Source of the DNA: Methanolobus bombayensis
Lineage (GTDB): Archaea; Halobacteriota; Methanosarcinia; Methanosarcinales; Methanosarcinaceae
Direction: 5' to 3'
Assembly: GCF_017873415.1 (NCBI RefSeq)
Contig: NZ_JAGGKD010000009.1
Coordinates: 1-64,000, forward strand
DNA length: 64,000 nucleotides
Below the pieces are notes generated by a model. It did not search any database. It worked only from the letters and a program-made list of their open reading frames with translations, and was not told the DNA's origin. Positions 4,176 to 63,724 of the stretch are shown one piece after another. The translations under genes were made by a program, and so were the position numbers. Position 1 is the stretch's first letter. Each line of letters opens with the position of its first letter.

Positions 4176-6740
4176 TTAATTTTGTTCCGGAGATACTATG
4201 CTCCCATCCCACTTATCCAGTACTTCCCTGACAGCATTCAATGAGACTGGTTTTGGGATATAATCATCCATTCCAGCTTCAATAAATCGTTCTCTGTCAC
4301 CTTTCAGGGCATATGCTGTCACCGCAATTATTGGTATATCCTTATTGAGTACTTTTGATCCGGGACTTCTGATCAGCTTTGTAACTTCTATACCATCCAT
4401 ATCAGGCATCTGTATATCCATGAACACCAGATCGTATGATGTAGTTTCAAGGGCTTTTATTGCCTTATGACCATTATCAACGGTATCCACATCCAAACCT
4501 AGTTTCTTCAACATGCACTGAGCAAGTTTTTGATTATCAATATTGTCCTCAACCAGCAGGACTTTAAGTTCACTGTTATGTTTTAGAGGTAAATCTGTAT
4601 TTGCATGTCTTTTTATTTTCTCATTTTCAGGTTGTTTTTCCATTTTTATTGTGAACCAGAAGTCTGAACCTTTACCTTCCTGGCTGTTGACACCAATTTC
4701 TCCTCCCATCATTTCAACCAGTTGTTTGGAAATTGAAAGTCCAAGACCTGTACCACCGAACCGGCGCGTGTTCGATGCATCTACCTGAGAGAATTTTTCA
4801 AATATATGTTCAATTCTGTCTTCGGGAATACCAATTCCGGTGTCACTTACTGTGAAAAGCAGTATGATGCTCTTATCTGTCTCGAATCCTACCGAGACGT
4901 GGATCTTCACCTCACCTTCAGAAGTGAATTTGATAGCGTTTCCTGTCAGATTTGTTAATATCTGCACCAGGCGTCCTTTGTCACCACGCAATAGCGAAGG
5001 AACATTATCTTCTACACTCAAGGTTAATTCCAATCCTTTGGAGTGAGCTCGCAGGTTCATTGTGCTTACAAAACTTTCCAGCACATCCGTAAGGTTAAAA
5101 TCAAGCATCTCCAGTTCAAACTTTCCAGCTTCGATCTTTGAAAGGTCAAGAATATCTTCTATTAGATCAAGTAGATGTTTTCCACTTTTTTGAACGACTT
5201 CTACGAAATGTTTTTGTTGTTCATTGAGTTCAGTTTCAAGAAGTATTTCATTAAAGCCAATGATGCTGTTCATCGGTGTGCGTATCTCATGACTCATGTT
5301 AGCCAGGAATTCTGATTTTGCTACATTGGCAGCTTCAGCAGCTTCTTTTGTCTGTAACAGTTCCTCTTCGAATTGCTTTCTCTCGGTTATATCAGTTCCT
5401 ACACTGTACATACCCGTAACGTTTCTTTCATGATCATGCATGAGATTGTTTGACCAGGATATCCAGAGTCTTCTTCCATCTTTGCATATGTTTTCACTGA
5501 CATTGTTCTGATATCTGTCAGGATTTTCAAACAGATCATCTAGAAAATAAGAATGATTTCTGCCGTTATTGTCATAGTCAGGTAAGATTGTCCCAACGAC
5601 ATTTTTTCCAATGATCTCTTCTTTTTCATATCCGAACAAACGTATCCCGAATTCATTAAGGAACAGGATCTCTCCATTGCGACTCCATTTCAGGATTATG
5701 CTATGAGATTTCTCTACCAGATCCTTGTATTCCTTTTTACTTTCAGCAAGTTCCTCTTCAGCCTTTTTCCGTTGATCAAGCTCTTCGTTCAGTTCTCGTG
5801 TTTTTCTTGTCACCTGATTCCTTACTGACCAGAAACCGATAAGGAGAATTACAGCAATACCTGAGGCAAGAAAGAGAGCTATTAACAAAGATCTGGCAAG
5901 ACTCTCCACTCCGGTTCCAAGATAAGTTTTTCCGAACCATTTATTATATATGCGGCTGTATTCCCCTGACTGTTTTACGATTGCAAGTCCTTCATTGAGC
6001 TGCTGTTGCAGTTCTTCATTTCCCTGTGAAATGGCAAAACAGTAATCTCGGGGTTCGATCACAGGTCCTACAGACTGCAGATTCTCTATTCCAAGTTTGT
6101 TCATGTTATAAACAGCTTGTAATTTCCCTAAAAGCGCTGCATCATGCTGACCTGATGAAAGAAGTATAAGAGCATCTTCCTGGTCTCTGACAGTTATTAT
6201 TCTGGAAGGGTCAGTTATATTGAGTGCATAATCATGCATAATGTCTCCTTCCTGCACGATGATATCAACATCACCCAGATCCTCAATTCCTTCGATACTT
6301 GACCCCTCGCGAACAAATATCGCATGTGAGACTACAATGTGTGGATTGGAAAAAAGTATATTTTCCGCTCTATCAGGTGAATAATACATTCCTGTCAGGA
6401 CATCAGCTGATCCGCTTTCAATAGCCGATCTGACATCATTCCATGGCCCAAGTTCTATAGTCGCGTTGATGCCCATTGTCTTAGCAATAGCCTGGAACAA
6501 TTCGACATTAAATCCTGTGGGATTCCCTTCCTCATCCAGGAATTCATAAGGGGGATAATTGTCGTCTCCTCTTACAAGAATATGGTCAGATGCTAATCCG
6601 TCACCTGTGAATATAGTTATCAGAAGAATGAAAGCAAGAAAAAGATTCATCCATGTATGTTTAAAAGTGAAAGGCTTTTTTATAAATACAGGAATTCTCA
6701 GGTTTTTTCTGCCAGATACTTTTCCCTTCCCACTGACCAC
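4176..6740 (-). CDS. Hybrid sensor histidine kinase with extracellular solute-binding domain
   Basis: An 854-residue sensor. Order: signal/anchor helix (about 31-50), a bacterial type 3 solute-binding domain (about 55-272, beginning VRGDDNYPPYEFLDEEGNP and resembling amino acid-binding proteins), a transmembrane helix (about 283-306), coiled coil, a PAS domain (about 345-455), HisKA with phospho-acceptor His484 (MSHEIRTPMN), HATPase with intact N and G boxes (NLTGNAIKFT, DTGIGIP, GGTGLGLS) and a receiver domain with Asp775 (FMDIQMPDMDG). It probably senses an extracellular amino acid-like ligand and signals through an internal phosphorelay; no output gene is adjacent. The GTG at 6740 gives a 30-residue basic extension. 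An ATG at 6650, about 25 bases after a TTTATAAA box, would give a normal signal peptide and is a good alternative start. Confidence 0.88.
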   Translation of the reverse strand: MVSGKGKVSGRKNLRIPVFIKKPFTFKHTWMNLFLAFILLITIFTGDGLASDHILVRGDDNYPPYEFLDEEGNPTGFNVELFQAIAKTMGINATIELGPWNDVRSAIESGSADVLTGMYYSPDRAENILFSNPHIVVSHAIFVREGSSIEGIEDLGDVDIIVQEGDIMHDYALNITDPSRIITVRDQEDALILLSSGQHDAALLGKLQAVYNMNKLGIENLQSVGPVIEPRDYCFAISQGNEELQQQLNEGLAIVKQSGEYSRIYNKWFGKTYLGTGVESLARSLLIALFLASGIAVILLIGFWSVRNQVTRKTRELNEELDQRKKAEEELAESKKEYKDLVEKSHSIILKWSRNGEILFLNEFGIRLFGYEKEEIIGKNVVGTILPDYDNNGRNHSYFLDDLFENPDRYQNNVSENICKDGRRLWISWSNNLMHDHERNVTGMYSVGTDITERKQFEEELLQTKEAAEAANVAKSEFLANMSHEIRTPMNSIIGFNEILLETELNEQQKHFVEVVQKSGKHLLDLIEDILDLSKIEAGKFELEMLDFNLTDVLESFVSTMNLRAHSKGLELTLSVEDNVPSLLRGDKGRLVQILTNLTGNAIKFTSEGEVKIHVSVGFETDKSIILLFTVSDTGIGIPEDRIEHIFEKFSQVDASNTRRFGGTGLGLSISKQLVEMMGGEIGVNSQEGKGSDFWFTIKMEKQPENEKIKRHANTDLPLKHNSELKVLLVEDNIDNQKLAQCMLKKLGLDVDTVDNGHKAIKALETTSYDLVFMDIQMPDMDGIEVTKLIRSPGSKVLNKDIPIIAVTAYALKGDRERFIEAGMDDYIPKPVSLNAVREVLDKWDGSIVSPEQN

Positions 6741-55853: not shown

Positions 55854-56270
55854 TCATCCGGTGGATAAATTACGTCTCTTATTGGAACTACCGTCAATGT
55901 ATCTCTTAATCGTTTCAGCTGATACCTGACCATGAGTACCAACATAATAGCTTGGCGACCAAAGATGATTACCCCAAAATTCTTTTTTTCGTAATTCTGG
56001 GAATTTCTGGAATACTCTCTTTGTAGTAACACCTTTCATAATTTTAACAATATCAGTAGGTGCTATGAATGGTGGTGCTGATATGAAAAGATGGATATGT
56101 TCAGGCATGACCTCAAGTTCAAGTATTTCCCATTCCTTAGAATCTGCTATTGTTCTTATCTGATCATCAAGAAACTCCTTTAACTCATCATTCATAACCT
56201 GTTTCCGGTATTTAGTGCACCATACAATATGATAATTAATTTCATATACAGCAGAACTCGAATATGACAT
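55854..56270 (-). CDS. tnpA: IS200/IS605 transposase TnpA (HUH, Y1)
   Basis: A 138-residue Y1 transposase, the usual length. The HUH motif is PEHIHLFISAP (His58, His60) and the catalytic Tyr124 is in GQVSAETIKRYI. The N-terminus has the YEINYHIVWCTKYRKQV signature. It cuts and joins single-stranded DNA at the hairpin ends of the element. It is divergent from tnpB with a 53-base gap that holds an AT-rich promoter. The stop codon lies inside the left-end hairpin. No frame break is visible, so it is probably active. Confidence 0.93.
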   Translation of the reverse strand: MSYSSSAVYEINYHIVWCTKYRKQVMNDELKEFLDDQIRTIADSKEWEILELEVMPEHIHLFISAPPFIAPTDIVKIMKGVTTKRVFQKFPELRKKEFWGNHLWSPSYYVGTHGQVSAETIKRYIDGSSNKRRNLSTG

Positions 56271-56323
56271 ATACTCATATAGTTACAAAAGATATTTAAA
56301 CATTGTTGACCTATAGGTTTTCA

Positions 56324-57460
56324 ATGCAGAAATCATATAAGTTTAGGTTATATCCTACAAAACAACAGGAAATGAATTTGAACAGAACACTTGATGTTTG
56401 TAGGCATATCTATAACGAATTTCTTGCAGATCGTAGAAATGCATACGAAAGATGCAATCAAGGATTATCCACTATAGAACAACTGTATCATGTTCAGTAC
56501 CTTGAATTTGATACAGACGTACATTCTCAGGTAAAACAAGATGTAATCAGGAGATTAGGTAAATCATTTGAGACTTTTTTCAGACGATGTAAGAACGGAG
56601 AAGCAAAAGTAGGTTATCCTCGGTTCAAAGGCAAGAGACGATATAACAGTTTTACCTATCCCCAATCTGGTTTTAGTATCTCTGGAAAGAAGTTGAAGCT
56701 ATCGAAGATTGGAGAGATCAAGATAGTTCAGCATCGAGAGATTGAAGGCAAGATCAAGACCTGTACTATTCGCAAAGATGGGAAACAATGGTATGTTACA
56801 TTCTCTGTAGTCATTGAGAACAATGTTACACCTGTTGAACCTGTTACCTTTGTAGGTATTGACGTAGGACTCAATTCTCTGGTTACTTTGAGTGATGGTA
56901 CTCAGATAAATCCTCCGAAATATTATCGCAATACGGAAGGCGAATTAAAAAGACAACAACGTAACCTTAGTCGTAAAAAGAAATTCTCTAACAATTGGAA
57001 GAAACAATGTGATAAGGTAAACACCTTACATCGTAAAATTCGCAGTCAGAGGAACGATTTTAACCATAAACTAAGCAGGGAACTCATTAATGCTTACGAT
57101 TACATAGCTTTTGAAGACCTGAATGTAAAGAACATGGTTAAAAATTCAAGACTATCAAAGTCAATACATGATGCATCATGGAGTGATCTAATTCAAATCA
57201 CAAAATACAAAGCGGAAGAAGCTGGTAAGTTTGTAGAATTAGTTAATCCATGTAATACGTCACAACTGTGTAGCAATTGTGGTCAAAAGGTAGAAAAATC
57301 ATTAGCGGTAAGGACACACAACTGTCCTCACTGTGGATTAGTTCTTGACCGTGACCATAATGCCGCTATTAATATTCTCAATCGTGCTGTAGGAACTACA
57401 GTTAAAGCCTGTGGAATTGAGTCGTTGGATTCGATAATGAAGCAGGAAGCCACCCTATGA
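56324..57460 (+). CDS. tnpB: TnpB RNA-guided endonuclease (IS605 OrfB)
   Basis: A 378-residue TnpB. RuvC residues are complete: Asp180 in FVGIDVGLNSLVTLS, Glu264 in IAFEDLNVKNM and Asp344 in LDRDHNAAINI. A zinc finger has Cys316/319 and Cys334/337 (TSQLCSNCGQ and THNCPHCG). TnpB proteins are guided by an omega-RNA made from the 3' end of tnpB and the right end of the element, and they cut the donor site to maintain the element. The ATG at 56324 (MQKSYKFRLYPTKQQ) is the family start; a TTG at 56303 is in frame. The 3' end overlaps the right-end hairpin. Confidence 0.94.
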   Translation: MQKSYKFRLYPTKQQEMNLNRTLDVCRHIYNEFLADRRNAYERCNQGLSTIEQLYHVQYLEFDTDVHSQVKQDVIRRLGKSFETFFRRCKNGEAKVGYPRFKGKRRYNSFTYPQSGFSISGKKLKLSKIGEIKIVQHREIEGKIKTCTIRKDGKQWYVTFSVVIENNVTPVEPVTFVGIDVGLNSLVTLSDGTQINPPKYYRNTEGELKRQQRNLSRKKKFSNNWKKQCDKVNTLHRKIRSQRNDFNHKLSRELINAYDYIAFEDLNVKNMVKNSRLSKSIHDASWSDLIQITKYKAEEAGKFVELVNPCNTSQLCSNCGQKVEKSLAVRTHNCPHCGLVLDRDHNAAINILNRAVGTTVKACGIESLDSIMKQEATL

Positions 57461-57477: not shown

Positions 57478-57591
57478 CCTCTCACGTCTATAAATCATGT
57501 TATTTGAACAACTCAACTTGAATAGATTAATATAGCTCCTGTGCGTAACCACCTGTTGATAAGTGTGTACCGAAAAAATTTCCCACTTCAT

Positions 57592-59055
57592 TTGAAGCAT
57601 TATTTGCTTGCATTGCAGGCAAGGAAACACGGCGGTAGGGCTTATGAGATGGCTGAAAAATATAATAATTCTGAATCAGGTATTCTTGATTTCAGCTCTA
57701 ACACGAATCCTCTTGGCACACCGTTCAATTTTCAGGCAAGTAACCTCGACCTGGAAAAAGTTGTTCTGCAATCCACAGAGAGGATAAACCAGTATCCTGA
57801 TAACAGATATCTCGAACTCAGGCAAGCAGTTGCTGCTTATTTAGGCAATGATATATCTGCGGATAATATTATTCCAGGTAACGGTACATGTGAACTTTTG
57901 CGTTTGATCATGGAAACTGTAGTCAGTGAAGAAGATATTCTAATTATTACGGCACCTTCCTCCGGAGAATATCGTCATATTGCCGAGGTTTTCGGAGCTC
58001 GCATAAGCTCATTTACTACTAAAGAAATACTCAATCTTCCAAAAATGACGTTGGACAGGGCAAAAGTCATTGTAATTGGAAATCCTGGTAATCCCACCGG
58101 AGAACTTATCCCTAGGGAGAAACTTTCTGGATTTGCTGAAAAATGTTCTGAACATGGAACACTGCTCATTGTTGACGAGTCTGCAATAGAACTGGCAGAT
58201 CCGGATGAGAGTGTGTTCAATATTGCAGTTGATAACGATTATCTCTTTGTAATAAGATCTGTATCCAATATAACAGCCATGCCGGGTATAAGACTGGCAT
58301 ATGCTGTTGCTTCCGTTTCCCTTGCAAGCATACTTAATTCTGCACGTTTATCGTGGAACATAGGTGTGACAGATGAGGCTATAGGAATAGCTTTCCTTAC
58401 AATGGAAGGTGGTCATGATAGTGAATATCTCAGAACGTCCCGTGAATACATTAAAAGGGAAAGGACCTATATCACCAAGCGTTTTTCGGGAATTTATGGT
58501 TTTGAACCACTTGAGAGCAGTACTAACTATATACTTATTGATGTAAAGGATCTTTTCCTGGATTCTGTCAGGCTAACAGAGGGACTGGCTTCACATGGGA
58601 TCCTTATTCGGGAATGCAGTGATTTCTTTAATGGAAATAAAAGATATGTGAGAATTTCCATTCGTACAAGAGAAGACTTTGAAAAGCTTATACACACCCT
58701 TGATACTGTTTTTGCTGAAACTAGCAGGGAAGATGCAAGAGAAAAGCTTGAAGAAACCATAGAACATGGTGGTAGTTCCTGCGCTGGACGTGGTACCTGT
58801 GAATATTATCCCTGCCATTTCACCGGGCAGGACTGCACTTTCTGTTTCTGTCCTTTCTATGCGTGTGAGGATGAGAGAACAGGAGGTAAATGGATTGAAA
58901 GCTCCACCGGAGGACAGGTATGGAGTTGTGAACATTGTACTTTATTGCATAGACCAAAAGTCGCCAAAAAGGTGCTTGAAGCACTAATGGCAGACGGAGA
59001 CACTGATGATAATATAAGGAGGGCATGGAAGGAGATCATTATACCCCTGCTTTGA
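57592..59055 (+). CDS. CobD-like protein lacking the PLP lysine (pseudo-decarboxylase) with Cys-rich domain
   Basis: A 487-residue paralogue of the next gene. The N-terminal ~370 residues have the fold-I aminotransferase pattern of L-threonine-O-3-phosphate decarboxylase (FSSNTNPLGTP, YPDNRYLELRQAVAAYLG, NPGNPTGELI). The Schiff-base Lys is replaced by Asn226 (RSVSNITAMPGIR versus RSLTKSFAIPGIR), the PLP Tyr by Ala (VDESAIEL versus VDEAYIEL) and the stacking aromatic by Ser. The C-terminal ~95 residues keep the metal-type Cys motif (CEYYPCHF.GQDCTFCFCPFY.C, then SC..C). It is thus unlikely to decarboxylate. The start is uncertain: TTG 57592 aligns with the paralogue; GTG 57541 and ATG 57649 are alternatives. 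Confidence 0.85.
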   Translation: MKHYLLALQARKHGGRAYEMAEKYNNSESGILDFSSNTNPLGTPFNFQASNLDLEKVVLQSTERINQYPDNRYLELRQAVAAYLGNDISADNIIPGNGTCELLRLIMETVVSEEDILIITAPSSGEYRHIAEVFGARISSFTTKEILNLPKMTLDRAKVIVIGNPGNPTGELIPREKLSGFAEKCSEHGTLLIVDESAIELADPDESVFNIAVDNDYLFVIRSVSNITAMPGIRLAYAVASVSLASILNSARLSWNIGVTDEAIGIAFLTMEGGHDSEYLRTSREYIKRERTYITKRFSGIYGFEPLESSTNYILIDVKDLFLDSVRLTEGLASHGILIRECSDFFNGNKRYVRISIRTREDFEKLIHTLDTVFAETSREDAREKLEETIEHGGSSCAGRGTCEYYPCHFTGQDCTFCFCPFYACEDERTGGKWIESSTGGQVWSCEHCTLLHRPKVAKKVLEALMADGDTDDNIRRAWKEIIIPLL

Positions 59056-59111: not shown

Positions 59112-60605
59112 GTGACAGACCAAAGATTAGCTCTTCCGGTAAAGAAATATCTTCTTAACCTTGAACCATGTGTTCATGGTGGACTGATAAGAAAAAGTTC
59201 CCAGAAATACGGTATTCCCGAATCTGAAATTCTGGATGCAAGTGCAAGTCTTAATCCCTTGGGTACTCCATTTGATCAGCCTGATCCTGAGCTTGATATG
59301 CAGGATCTTCTAATTAAAGGACTTGAAAAACTGGAACAGTATCCTGATAACCGTTATCTTGAATATCGAATTGCTGCAGCAGAATTTGTGGGCATGGGAA
59401 TGACATATGAGAACATAATTCCCGGCAATGGTTCAACTGAGATAATAAGACTTGTGGCTGAATGCGTAGTAGCTGAAGATGATGTTGTACTGATTCCAAG
59501 ACCTACATTCAGTGAATATGAATTGCAGTGCAGTGTCATGGGTGCCCGGATCAGGTACATCAGGCAGGAAGAGATATTCGATCTTGACCATGATGTTCTG
59601 GATGAAGCTAAAATACTTTTTGTTTGCAACCCCAATAACCCCACTGGCCAGTTGTTCATGAAAGAAGAACTTGAGAAACTTGCAGAGCAATGTGCAGCTC
59701 ATAAGACCATCCTCTTTGTGGATGAAGCCTATATTGAACTTGCAGACCCTGAGCAGAGTGTTGCTTCCTTAGTAGAGAACAATGATTATCTTTTCATCCA
59801 GCGCTCTCTTACAAAATCATTTGCTATTCCCGGAATCAGAATGGGTTTTGGAGTTGCTTCATCTAAATTTGCATGTGTACTTAACAATGCAAGACTTTCC
59901 TGGAATATGGGTTGTATTTCAGACACAATTGCAACTGCACTTCTCAGTATGGAAGGTGGAGTAAACAGCAAGTATCTCAGGGATTCCAGGGCTTTTATTG
60001 AGCAGGAACGTGAATTCCTTATGAAAAAACTCTCACGCAGGGGATTTAAACCTGCGAAAAGTTGTGTCAATTATATATATGTGGATATTTCTGACCTCTC
60101 ACTTAATTCCTCGGAACTTGCAGAGAGAATGGCCTCTCATGGAGTGCTGATACGTGATTGCAGTTCTTTCCAGAATAATGGCAAAAACCACATAAGGGTG
60201 GCAATACGTACAAGGGAAGAGAACGAAAGGATAGCAAATACAATTCGTCAGGTGATCTATGAATGGGGCAGGGAGCAGGCTGAGGTGCAGCTGCGTGAAA
60301 ATATCAAAGTAGCTGCTGAATGTGGTCGTAAGGGAAGCAATCTTGATTGTGAGTATTATCCATGTCATTTTGACGGACAGGACTGTACTTTTTGTTTCTG
60401 TCCCTTCTATCCTTGCGAGGATAAACGCACAGGTGGTAACTGGATAGAAAGTTCAAGTGGTGGACATGTCTGGAGCTGTCTGAACTGTAATATTGTCCAT
60501 GAAGAAAAGATAGTTGATGATCTTCTGTCTGTATTTGTTTCAGAAGGTCTTAATGATGAAAGCATTAAAAAGGCATGGAAGGATGTAATGGAGAGCAACT
60601 TATGA
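59112..60605 (+). CDS. cobD: L-threonine-O-3-phosphate decarboxylase CobD with Cys-rich C-terminal domain
   Basis: A 497-residue enzyme that makes (R)-1-amino-2-propanol phosphate, the linker for the cobamide nucleotide loop. PLP residues are intact: Lys235 (RSLTKSFAIPGIRMG), NPNNPTGQLF, VDEAYIEL and a late Arg (HIRVAIRTREEN). The C-terminal domain (about 400-497) carries the Cys motif DCEYYPCHFDGQDCTFCFCP...C and WSCLNC. In Methanosarcina mazei the homologous protein (MM2060) is reported as bifunctional, with L-Thr kinase activity and metal centres in the C-terminal part. The GTG at 59112 is my choice; a frame extends upstream to 59025. It overlaps cbiB by four bases. Confidence 0.92.
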   Translation: MTDQRLALPVKKYLLNLEPCVHGGLIRKSSQKYGIPESEILDASASLNPLGTPFDQPDPELDMQDLLIKGLEKLEQYPDNRYLEYRIAAAEFVGMGMTYENIIPGNGSTEIIRLVAECVVAEDDVVLIPRPTFSEYELQCSVMGARIRYIRQEEIFDLDHDVLDEAKILFVCNPNNPTGQLFMKEELEKLAEQCAAHKTILFVDEAYIELADPEQSVASLVENNDYLFIQRSLTKSFAIPGIRMGFGVASSKFACVLNNARLSWNMGCISDTIATALLSMEGGVNSKYLRDSRAFIEQEREFLMKKLSRRGFKPAKSCVNYIYVDISDLSLNSSELAERMASHGVLIRDCSSFQNNGKNHIRVAIRTREENERIANTIRQVIYEWGREQAEVQLRENIKVAAECGRKGSNLDCEYYPCHFDGQDCTFCFCPFYPCEDKRTGGNWIESSSGGHVWSCLNCNIVHEEKIVDDLLSVFVSEGLNDESIKKAWKDVMESNL

Positions 60606-61582
60606 TGCTGCCAGTGCCGGTAGAGGCAAATGCCAGTGAACTTGTAATTGTACTTATTTTAGCCTATGCTCTTGACCTTGTATTCTGTGAGCCTCCGTTT
60701 GCCATTCATCCGGTAGTGTGGATGGGCAGATTGATAGGCTTTTTCAAGAAACATGTCCCGGAAAACAATCGCAGGCTTTACGGCATATTCATGGGACTGG
60801 TCACTATACTATTCGGATGTTTGATCGCCTATATTGTAATGTTATTCATGGGTGTAGAGTCCATTCCTTCACCGGTTCGTTACCTTGTTGCTGCTTATTT
60901 CCTTAAGGCAACATTTGCGATTCGCTGTCTCTATGGTGCCGCTGATGAAGTAAGAGTTGAACTTGATGCCGGTAAACTTGACAGTGCCAGACAGAAACTT
61001 TCAATGTATGTAAGTCGGGACACATCAAAACTTGAGGAGGGAAAAGTTTCTTCAGCAATAATCGAGACAACTTCAGAGAACTATGTTGACGGCATACTTT
61101 CCCCGCTATTGTTCTATGCCTGTTTCGGACCATATGGATTAATGGCAGCATACATCTTCAAAGCTACAAGTACTCTTGATTCCATGGTTGGATATATGGA
61201 TGAACGTCATCGTGAGATTGGCTGGTTCTCTGCTAAACTGGATGATGTGTTTAACTGGATACCTGCACGTTTGTCTGTAATTTTCTTGGCAACTGCAACT
61301 CTTGTTATAGGCCTGTTCTATAGAAAGGTCAAGATCCCTGATTACAGAACAGCTTTTAAAACAAGTATTAGGGACGGATTAAAAACCCCATCTCCAAATT
61401 CCGGCTTTCCAATGGCTTCCATTGCAGGTGCCCTTAATATAAAATTAGAAAAACCAAGTACCTATGTGCTTGGTGATGGTTTTGTTTACCCGATGTCAGA
61501 AGATATCAAACTCACATCCTGGATAATTCTTGTGGCATCGTTCTTTGCAATTATAGTATCTTCGGTCATAATAGTGGCATAA
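60602..61582 (+). CDS. cbiB: Adenosylcobinamide-phosphate synthase CbiB
   Basis: A 326-residue membrane protein that attaches aminopropanol phosphate to adenosylcobyric acid. The signature is complete: LAYALDLVFCEPPFAIHPVVWMGRLI at the start, then STLDSMVGYMDERHREIGWFSAKLDD and PSPNSGFPMASIAGALNIKLEKP. About four to five transmembrane helices. It uses the product of CobD, encoded immediately upstream with a four-base ATGA overlap. A second ATG directly follows the first. It is followed by a 92-base gap with a likely secondary promoter. Confidence 0.95.
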   Translation: MMLPVPVEANASELVIVLILAYALDLVFCEPPFAIHPVVWMGRLIGFFKKHVPENNRRLYGIFMGLVTILFGCLIAYIVMLFMGVESIPSPVRYLVAAYFLKATFAIRCLYGAADEVRVELDAGKLDSARQKLSMYVSRDTSKLEEGKVSSAIIETTSENYVDGILSPLLFYACFGPYGLMAAYIFKATSTLDSMVGYMDERHREIGWFSAKLDDVFNWIPARLSVIFLATATLVIGLFYRKVKIPDYRTAFKTSIRDGLKTPSPNSGFPMASIAGALNIKLEKPSTYVLGDGFVYPMSEDIKLTSWIILVASFFAIIVSSVIIVA

Positions 61583-61674
61583 TATGTAAAACTAAAAATG
61601 AAATTCAATTATTAATTCAAAATATAACTATACATCTCAAAACAATAATCTTATTAAGAAATCTCCCCGAAGTG

Positions 61675-62283
61675 ATGGCAATGAAATTATCGGATATAGA
61701 ATCAAAAGACCTTAAAGAAGGCCAGTCTAAAGAACTGGAAGGTGAGATCACCAGGGATATAATCGAAATCCTTGAAGAGGAAGGAATAACTGTTCAGATG
61801 CTTGTTGATGCTGCACTTGAACTTTATGCACCGCATCCGGGTCTGGAAACCAGGGAACTTGCCGAGGAAAAATTCCTCAAAGAGCTTAATATTGCCATAT
61901 CCGATCCGAATCTCTGTCTGCTTATCTATTCCGGAGTGCTGCTTGAAAAAGAAGGCAGAGTAGGACGTTTACCTAATATTAGCAGAAGTTCGTATGAAAA
62001 AGATCTTACATTCATAATTGCAGATGAGGTTCTTGGTATGAGTATTTCCAAGTATATTAGTGGTGACAAGGGAATGTTCGAATTTGTGCGCTTTGATAAG
62101 CAAAAACCGGGAATACTTGCAGAACTTGGACCATTCATGGATGACATAATTGGTGGTCTTATAGGTGGTGTATCTGCCAATATGTACACAAGGGCAATGG
62201 CGGAAGCTGCTGAAAAATCTGCTGATAAGGAAGAGCAAAAGGAAAAAGACCCGGAACATAAGAGTGATGTGATAGCAGGATGA
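61675..62283 (+). CDS. cobZ: Alpha-ribazole phosphatase CobZ (PgpA-like)
   Basis: A 202-residue protein with PgpA/YutG similarity (LRFDKQKPGI-type motif FVRFDKQKPGILAEL and the DDIIGGLIGGVSANMYT end). In Methanosarcina mazei the homologue (MM2058) was shown to be a non-orthologous replacement of CobC, dephosphorylating alpha-ribazole-5'-phosphate. The position between cbiB and cobS is the same. The N-terminal part (about 1-130) is helical. GTG 61672 and ATG 61675 both are possible starts. It overlaps cobS by four bases. Confidence 0.9.
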   Translation: MAMKLSDIESKDLKEGQSKELEGEITRDIIEILEEEGITVQMLVDAALELYAPHPGLETRELAEEKFLKELNIAISDPNLCLLIYSGVLLEKEGRVGRLPNISRSSYEKDLTFIIADEVLGMSISKYISGDKGMFEFVRFDKQKPGILAELGPFMDDIIGGLIGGVSANMYTRAMAEAAEKSADKEEQKEKDPEHKSDVIAG

Positions 62284-63101
62284 ACGGATTTTTGTTAGCT
62301 TTAAGATCCAGCTTCGGATTTCTTTCAACAATTCCAGTCGGCATTACCATGGAAGGACTCGATGAGTTCTTCAAAAGGACATATCTTCACTTGGTGGTCG
62401 GTATAGTCCTTGGTTTGATAATGGGTGCGGTTGCGTACCTTCTTGTAAATTATCTTCCTATCTCTATTGCCGCTGTGCTGGTAATCGCTTTTGTTTATTA
62501 TATTACAGGACTGAACCATCTGGATGGTATGGCGGATCTGGGTGATGGTTTGACAGCTCATGGCTCTGTTGAAAAGAAGCTTAAAGCATTGAAGGACATG
62601 TCTCTTGGAATAGGTGGTGTTGCTTATGCATCCCTTGTTATTGTTGCATTCTACGCGACACTTGTAGCATTACATGAGCAGTCTTCAATTTTGTCTTCAT
62701 CTTCTGCTGATATTGCACGTATATTCTTCTTTGCAATGTTTGTTTCAGAAATAAGTGCTATGCAATCCATGCTCACAATTGCTGCATTCGGTAAGTCAAT
62801 ACATGAAGGCCTGGGTTCAATACTTGTGAACAATACCACAGTACCTAAATACCTTATAGGATTTGTAATTGGTATTGTCGCCTGTGTTGCAATGTCATTT
62901 TACCTTGGTTTTGGTATTGTCGGTATCATTCCATTCATTGCAGCTATTCTGGCAACATTTATATTGCTTAATATCAGCAACAGGCATTTTGGTGGTGTCA
63001 ATGGTGATGTCATCGGTGCATCCAATGAGGTAGGCAGGATAATTGCACTTATCACTATGACACTGATATTGATGTATGGAGGTATTGTTTGGACGCTATA
63101 A
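62280..63101 (+). CDS. cobS: Adenosylcobinamide-GDP ribazoletransferase CobS
   Basis: A 273-residue polytopic membrane enzyme that condenses adenosylcobinamide-GDP with alpha-ribazole (phosphate). The family motif is GLNHLDGMADLGDGLTAHGS (about 78-97) with Asp-rich metal binding; the GGVNGDVIGASNEVGRI segment near residue 240 is also conserved. The N-terminus LRSSFGFLSTIPVG is typical. The start is coupled to cobZ, and the end overlaps the cobY start by 13 bases. Confidence 0.95.
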   Translation: MNGFLLALRSSFGFLSTIPVGITMEGLDEFFKRTYLHLVVGIVLGLIMGAVAYLLVNYLPISIAAVLVIAFVYYITGLNHLDGMADLGDGLTAHGSVEKKLKALKDMSLGIGGVAYASLVIVAFYATLVALHEQSSILSSSSADIARIFFFAMFVSEISAMQSMLTIAAFGKSIHEGLGSILVNNTTVPKYLIGFVIGIVACVAMSFYLGFGIVGIIPFIAAILATFILLNISNRHFGGVNGDVIGASNEVGRIIALITMTLILMYGGIVWTL

Positions 63102-63724
63102 TCATGGCAGGGGGTTTTGGAAGCAGACTGGGCATGGGTGAAAAACCCTGTGTCGAGCTATTGGGAAAACCTCTGATATCATATGTTATCGATACTTTGA
63201 TGAAGACAGAGAGTATTGGTGACATCTATGTTGCTGTATCTCCGGCAACACCGAAGACCGCATCATATGTTGAGGAAGAGTATGAAGGCAAGGTTCATGT
63301 GATTCCAACAGGAGGCGGAAATTATGTTGGTGACATGGTCTATGCAGTAAAAGCTGCCTGCATAGGCGATCCATTAATGATTCTTATGTCCGACCTGCCA
63401 TTACTGACTCCTGATCTTCTTGAAAAGGTAGTTTCTGAGTATGAGGTCTGTGGTAAACCTGCAATGTCCATATTCACTCCGCTATCTGTTTGTAAAAGTC
63501 TTGGTATAAGACCTGATACGGTTTTTAATTGGGAAGGGGGAGGAAACCTGATAGTTCCTTCAGGTGTCAATATACTGGATGGTAAGGATGTCGACAATGA
63601 ACAGGAATATGTCAGCCTCATTCTTGATGATATTGAATTTGCCCTTAATATCAACACGGTTGATGATCTGAAAAGATGCAAGAAAATGCTCCTTGAAAGA
63701 AATGCAGGTTCAATAAAGAATTGA
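63089..63724 (+). CDS. cobY: GTP:adenosylcobinamide-phosphate guanylyltransferase CobY
   Basis: A 211-residue nucleotidyltransferase, the archaeal alternative to CobU. The N-terminal signature is AIIMAGGFGSRLGMGEKPCVEL, followed by LMILMSDLPLLTPDLLEKV and VPSGVNILDGKD. It activates adenosylcobinamide-phosphate with GTP for CobS. It uses a TTG start at 63089 (MDAIIMAGG), supported by overlap with cobS and the absence of a closer ATG. It is the last gene of the cobamide run; a T-rich tail follows. Confidence 0.93.
   Translation: MDAIIMAGGFGSRLGMGEKPCVELLGKPLISYVIDTLMKTESIGDIYVAVSPATPKTASYVEEEYEGKVHVIPTGGGNYVGDMVYAVKAACIGDPLMILMSDLPLLTPDLLEKVVSEYEVCGKPAMSIFTPLSVCKSLGIRPDTVFNWEGGGNLIVPSGVNILDGKDVDNEQEYVSLILDDIEFALNINTVDDLKRCKKMLLERNAGSIKN

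Follow-up and report, generated by a model that had tools for sequence, protein, structure and literature searches.

Among the closest described systems is the CobD of Methanosarcina mazei (MM2060), whose C-terminal domain reportedly contains iron; removal of that domain is said to have lowered, and not abolished, both activities of the enzyme, and the domain alone was reportedly inactive and only boosted activity. MM2060 has its fold, Cys domain and operon neighbours (cbiB, cobZ, cobS and cobY) in common with the upstream member of a tandem CobD pair in Methanolobus bombayensis, the subject of this analysis—but MM2060-type Methanosarcina enzymes retain Lys, Phe and all substrate residues, and the Methanolobus copy does not. 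The best fold match of the modelled protein, CobD of S. enterica (1lc5, 1lc7, 1lc8 and 1lkc), differs from it in possessing the catalytic Lys and in having no Cys domain. The serine palmitoyltransferase subunit LCB1 is without the PLP Lys and is kept beside its catalytic homologue LCB2 (PMC3794620), so that, as in our pair, a lysine-less PLP-fold subunit accompanies an active one; that heterodimer is proven, whereas the one considered here is putative, and LCB1/LCB2 belongs to an unrelated pathway and has no Cys module. Likewise, the Trypanosoma AdoMetDC prozyme is an inactive decarboxylase paralogue retained as a partner (PMC5201418), a parallel to the Methanolobus copy, although its fold and cofactor are different and its activating role is proven, whereas that of our copy would be putative. 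As in the present locus, two CobD paralogues lie in a cobamide gene region of haloarchaea (cobD1/cobD2; HVO_0591 and HVO_0593 in Haloferax volcanii), the second with no assigned role (PMC8305020). The sequence-only reading knew of no description of a copy like the upstream one, and our searches, which covered open-access papers, likewise retrieved none; the gene would add an archaeal cobamide case to the few PLP-fold pseudoenzymes that stand beside an active paralogue.

The tandem CobD pair and its gene neighbourhood

The window—the whole 64,000-nucleotide stretch of M. bombayensis DNA analysed here—holds two tandem CobD-like coding sequences that are 48% identical, each combining a PF00155 (aminotransferase class I/II) domain with a C-terminal PF04071 domain (Table 1). 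Residues of the upstream, lysine-less copy are numbered with nucleotide 57592 opening residue 1. The frame is open throughout from 57592 to 59055, in agreement with the earlier description of a full-length copy free of frame breaks, and the gene is an intact CobD homologue. A GTG codon at 57565 lies 27 bases upstream of 57592 in the same frame; because the leader that precedes it is near-identical in seven Methanolobus relatives (L118-L123 and L142), this GTG is the probable gene start. The genes from the lysine-less copy through the cobY-like gene overlap or leave short gaps, which suggests that they form one operon. An Rfam search of the 50-64 kb part of the window returned zero matches to a cobalamin riboswitch. 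Directly upstream of the lysine-less gene, at 55854-57460, we also observed an IS200/IS605-type element with a TnpA-like (-) and a TnpB-like (+) frame, identified from their translations; the leader and its TATA-like stretch, downstream of this element, are intact.

Table 1. Coordinates of the features discussed; positions refer to the window unless a locus is named
Feature	Position	Strand	Remark
Probable promoter leader with archaeal TATA-like stretch (TTAATATA), just 5' of the start codon	57524..57564	+	Putative promoter role
Lysine-less CobD paralogue (pseudo-decarboxylase), 496 aa	57565..59055	+	Start probably GTG 57565
Aminotransferase-fold domain, PF00155 match, residues 31-369	57682..58698	+	
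Ser124 codon, where PLP-stacking Phe is expected	57961..57963	+	
Ser197 codon (VDE-S)	58180..58182	+	Diagnostic of lysine-less clades A and B
Ala198 codon, where Phe/Tyr is expected	58183..58185	+	
Asn226 codon, where the PLP Schiff-base Lys is expected	58267..58269	+	
C-terminal Cys-rich domain PF04071, eight conserved Cys present	58792..58992	+	
Catalytically complete CobD paralogue with Cys domain	59112..60605	+	Start probably GTG 59112, by sequence reading
Schiff-base Lys codon of the downstream CobD copy	59814-59816	+	
cbiB, adenosylcobinamide-phosphate synthase	60575..61582	+	
cobZ, alpha-ribazole phosphatase	61672..62283	+	
cobS, adenosylcobinamide-GDP ribazoletransferase	62280..63101	+	
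cobY-like nucleotidyltransferase	63089..63724	+	Best matches TIGR00454 and AdoCbiPCobY_Meth, both below cut-off
Family f3 split-CobD loci	L200:4629-5195, L201:4966-5532, L203:4792-5364, L204:801-1385, L208:5081-5647; L247-L253		

Against TIGR01140, the L-Thr-P decarboxylase equivalog with a curated cut-off of 290.55 bits, the downstream copy scored 291.1 bits and the lysine-less copy 239.5 bits. The latter has the aminotransferase fold of CobD but neither reaches this cut-off nor carries the Schiff-base Lys; it does have, at its C-terminal end, the PF04071 domain and the eight conserved Cys that characterize M. mazei-type CobD. Moreover, it combines the traits expected of a pseudoenzyme partner, namely a lost catalytic residue, purifying selection and an adjoining active paralogue. 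In the AlphaFold model of the lysine-less protein (whole-protein mean pLDDT 83.8), the aminotransferase domain was mostly above 85, and the best PDB match was S. enterica 1lc8/1lkc with a TM score of 0.88 by target length. The Cys domain was modelled at pLDDT 38-73, and because of this low confidence the metal geometry is unreadable from the model.

Active-site residues and distribution of the lysine-less copy

The comparison of active sites rests on an alignment to 163 homologues, with 121 lysine-bearing and 43 lysine-less rows. As the sequence-only reading had proposed, Asn226 occupies the place of the Schiff-base Lys in the upstream copy and the stacking aromatic is gone, Ser124 standing where 121/121 lysine-bearing homologues have Phe—an invariance that, unlike that of Lys in the same 121, does not follow from how the group was defined. 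The same reading listed the loss of a PLP-hydroxyl Tyr to Ala, which holds for Ala198 against the Tyr of the downstream partner; however, the site is Phe in 112/121 lysine-bearing copies and Tyr in only nine, so that the Tyr-to-Ala change is weak evidence. Position 197 is Ser in all 41 lysine-less rows of clades A and B (see below) and Ala or Thr in all 121 lysine-bearing ones. The window's lysine-less copy retains Asp195, Arg222, Ser223 and the YPDNRY motif. Across the 43 lysine-less rows, the stacking Phe is lost without exception and all eight Cys stay. The claim that the upstream copy keeps every Cys stands for the eight family-conserved residues; where its downstream neighbour has a ninth, which is not conserved in the family, the upstream copy has Ser.

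These residues bear on two alternative functions. Sugar 3-dehydratases use His where Lys is expected, a precedent for non-covalent PLP/PMP catalysis, and the lysine-less copy might by analogy be an enzyme with new chemistry of this kind: the pyridine-binding Asp is retained in 41/43 and the phosphate Ser in 42/43 lysine-less rows, and Methanomethylovorans has His in place of Lys. Against this, the replacement is variable, with Asn, Asp, Thr, Arg, Gly and Tyr occurring besides His, and the stacking Phe is missing from every row; we regard this possibility as very unlikely. The main rival to our preferred reading is a dedicated L-Thr kinase, in which a bifunctional ancestor was divided and the lysine-less copy kept the kinase activity, supplying L-Thr-P to the active copy. 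Methanolobus has largely retained the Arg and Ser residues that would bind Thr/phosphate, and in clade A Arg222, Ser223 and most of Arg340/Arg358 (phosphate/substrate residues) persist, which would be compatible with kinase activity or with ligand binding. The pocket, however, is eroded in two lysine-less lineages out of three and the Cys domain is not: the phosphate Arg is replaced by Gly, Lys, Asn, Ala or others in 14/43 rows, and Methanohalophilus has lost the HGG motif.

Two or more CobD copies were present in all 27 Methanolobus genomes searched, and the lysine-less copy lay directly upstream of the active cobD in each of them (27/27) and in 6/6 Methanomethylovorans genomes examined. In Methanohalophilus, Lys was absent in 8/8 rows of one copy; Methanosarcina and several other genera have one copy, which bears the lysine. 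The pair, which the sequence-only reading suggested looking for in other methylotrophic methanogens, is no local peculiarity: it occurs in Methanomethylovorans, and Methanohalophilus has a lysine-less copy as well. In the phylogenetic tree, for which branch support is SH-aLRT only, the 33 lysine-less rows of Methanolobus and Methanomethylovorans formed one clade (clade A, SH-aLRT 99) and their active partners a separate clade (SH-aLRT 100 for the 33 rows), and the lysine-less form is therefore older than the split between the two genera. The eight Methanohalophilus lysine-less rows (clade B) grouped with a second, lysine-bearing copy of Methanococcoides (SH-aLRT 99).

The gene order in Methanolobus and Methanomethylovorans is lysine-less copy, active copy, cbiB, cobZ, cobS and cobY. 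In Methanohalophilus, the lysine-less copy adjoins cbiB and the active copy lies alone some 20-25 kb away, and in Methanococcoides two lysine-bearing copies, with a gene for a MobA-like NTP transferase between them (L066:5170-5775, +), precede cbiB. Tree and synteny together favour, and do not prove, two independent losses of the lysine; provided that the tree is correct, it would have gone from one member of the pair in Methanolobus/Methanomethylovorans and from the other in Methanohalophilus. A single origin of all lysine-less rows was rejected by the AU test (p 0.007); clades A and B alone as a single clade were not rejected (p 0.11).

Several individual copies deviate from this picture. 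One Methanomethylovorans genome and one of Methanolobus vulcani each have a very divergent third CobD copy (L113:3105-4557, -, and L114:3656-5165, +); both copies are lysine-less, with eroded aminotransferase motifs and all eight Cys present, and lie outside the cobamide operon. A Pfam scan of ten neighbours of extra CobD copies revealed no common partner outside that operon. Additionally, one Methanococcoides genome has a second CobD copy (L069; G024:C1:216405-217837) that is interrupted by stops and falls into two overlapping frames.

Purifying selection and the division of constraint

The lysine-less copy is under purifying selection. Pairwise Nei-Gojobori estimates over 21 close Methanolobus pairs gave dN/dS values of 0.106 for its aminotransferase part and 0.066 for its Cys domain, compared with 0.054 and 0.049 in the active copy; the drift that the sequence-only reading had named as grounds for abandoning its proposal, with dN/dS near 1, is not seen. 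With Lys absent in 33/33 orthologues of two genera, these values argue that the pattern is not due to chance. A decaying duplicate or pseudogene would agree with the faster evolution of the aminotransferase part and with early stops in a single assembly, but the gene is intact in 26/27 Methanolobus genomes, its dN/dS is near 0.1 and Ser197 occurs in 41/41 rows; selection and retention rule this reading out, and it is the least probable of those we weighed. The lysine-less copy is probably a non-catalysing partner rather than a dying gene. In the exceptional assembly, Soudan_27 (G050), the lysine-less copy (L048, G050:C52, near 5120-5180) carries one A too many in a homopolymer, along with two stops close to its N-terminus, which could represent either an assembly error or incipient loss.

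Constraint is swapped between the copies in all three genera: compared with its active partner, the lysine-less copy conserves the Cys domain and relaxes the aminotransferase domain. Mean dN for the aminotransferase and Cys parts was 0.064 and 0.025 in the lysine-less copy versus 0.031 and 0.042 in the active one. The Cys-to-aminotransferase divergence of the lysine-less copy relative to that of the active copy—a ratio of ratios from pairwise mismatch, with 95% intervals from a column bootstrap that ignores relatedness—was 0.48 (0.36-0.65) in Methanolobus, 0.24 (0.13-0.40) in Methanomethylovorans and 0.61 (0.45-0.84) in Methanohalophilus, and subtree lengths agree with this swap. Of the columns that are fixed in the active clade but free in the lysine-less clade, 66 belong to the aminotransferase part and four to the Cys part. 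Since the Cys/aminotransferase ratio ranges from about 0.18 to 0.94 in single-copy lineages and exceeds 1 in both lysine-bearing copies of Methanococcoides, the active partner, and not an ancestral baseline, is the better yardstick for the swap. The age of the copy, the purifying selection and the division of constraint between the two domains support the subfunctionalisation that had been put forward as the simplest reading.

The Cys domain in other methanogens and the role of the lysine-less copy

In the same order, family f3 has the fused protein split into a Cys-less CobD and a separate Cys-domain protein. The CobD proteins of the seven f3 loci (367-384 aa) are without the Cys domain, the SLTK lysine motif being seen in the six displayed (L253 is the seventh), and the Cys proteins (188-194 aa) consist of the small C-terminal subdomain and the Cys domain only, with no PLP large domain. 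PF04071 is also fused to CbiZ, in 3/3 cases checked by Pfam or phmmer (L209, L210 and L213), and in family f10 a stand-alone Cys domain lies directly upstream of cbiB, often overlapping it, at 12/18 loci. From the f3 split, the CbiZ fusion and the f10 placement, it follows that the Cys module accompanies the enzymes that handle the aminopropanol arm of cobamides, whether in its making, attachment or removal. A search directed at the haloarchaeal pair covered ten genomes of the phylum that lack PF04071, and it recovered the lysine motif at two loci only (RTFSK, weak matches).

The explanation we prefer, holding it about evenly balanced between right and wrong, is that the window gene may be a CobD-derived pseudo-decarboxylase retained as a carrier of the Cys/metal module and working with CobD and CbiB. 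An old duplication of a fused CobD-Cys-domain enzyme would have left one copy with the L-Thr-P decarboxylase function, and the other, now lacking the PLP lysine and stacking aromatic, would have kept the Cys-rich metal module. This second copy would no longer decarboxylate, and its aminotransferase fold would now serve mainly for dimerisation or docking, with the active CobD as the probable partner. In favour of this, Tyr68, a cross-dimer residue by homology, is present in 33/33 clade A rows; against it, the position is Phe in 6/8 Methanohalophilus lysine-less copies. The Cys module, perhaps binding Fe or Fe-S by analogy with M. mazei CobD, could assist, dock or gate the making of aminopropanol phosphate, and possibly its use by membrane-bound CbiB. 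Because the Cys module was kept when decarboxylation was lost, a complex with active CobD near CbiB appears the most likely setting.

Between such a role, as partner/scaffold or metal module, and that of a dedicated Thr kinase, we favour the former: two lysine-less lineages out of three show erosion of the substrate pocket but not of the Cys domain, and the Cys-bearing half in f3 occurs without the PLP large domain. The kinase nevertheless keeps a minority share of our confidence because M. mazei CobD is reported with both activities, being titled a bifunctional kinase/decarboxylase (Tavares 2018/2019, a title cited in PMC9986279). The L-Thr kinase step, the source of L-Thr-P, is a pathway gap in archaea, among them haloarchaea (PMC8305020). 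An iron or redox regulator, sensing Fe/S supply or redox state through the Cys domain and tuning CobD or CbiB, strikes us as improbable. All eight Cys are in place, M. mazei CobD is reported with metallocentres (again a title cited in PMC9986279), and in M. barkeri L-Thr-P decarboxylase belongs to the 35 proteins that show the largest changes with the Fe/S source, in a cluster with SufB (PMC10846266); the sequence data, however, fit a regulator and a carrier of the Cys module alike.

A more tentative extension of the carrier reading, possible though on balance doubtful, is that in several lineages of methylotrophic methanogens the fused CobD was split repeatedly into decarboxylase and Cys carrier—through lysine loss on opposite tandem members or domain deletion in f3—and that the lysine-less protein might be an obligate CobD-CbiB link. 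Lineages that separate the Cys domain from the decarboxylase, by either route, let both functions be knocked out and assayed apart, in methylotrophic methanogens that depend heavily on corrinoid methyltransferases.

Finally, PF04071 was found fused to a glycerophosphodiester phosphodiesterase (GDPD) domain at L211:3212-4237 (-), with no obvious cobamide role, and at three f3 loci (L200, L201 and L208) the Cys protein adjoins a 382-aa ORF, which was a class III aminotransferase in both of the two cases tested.
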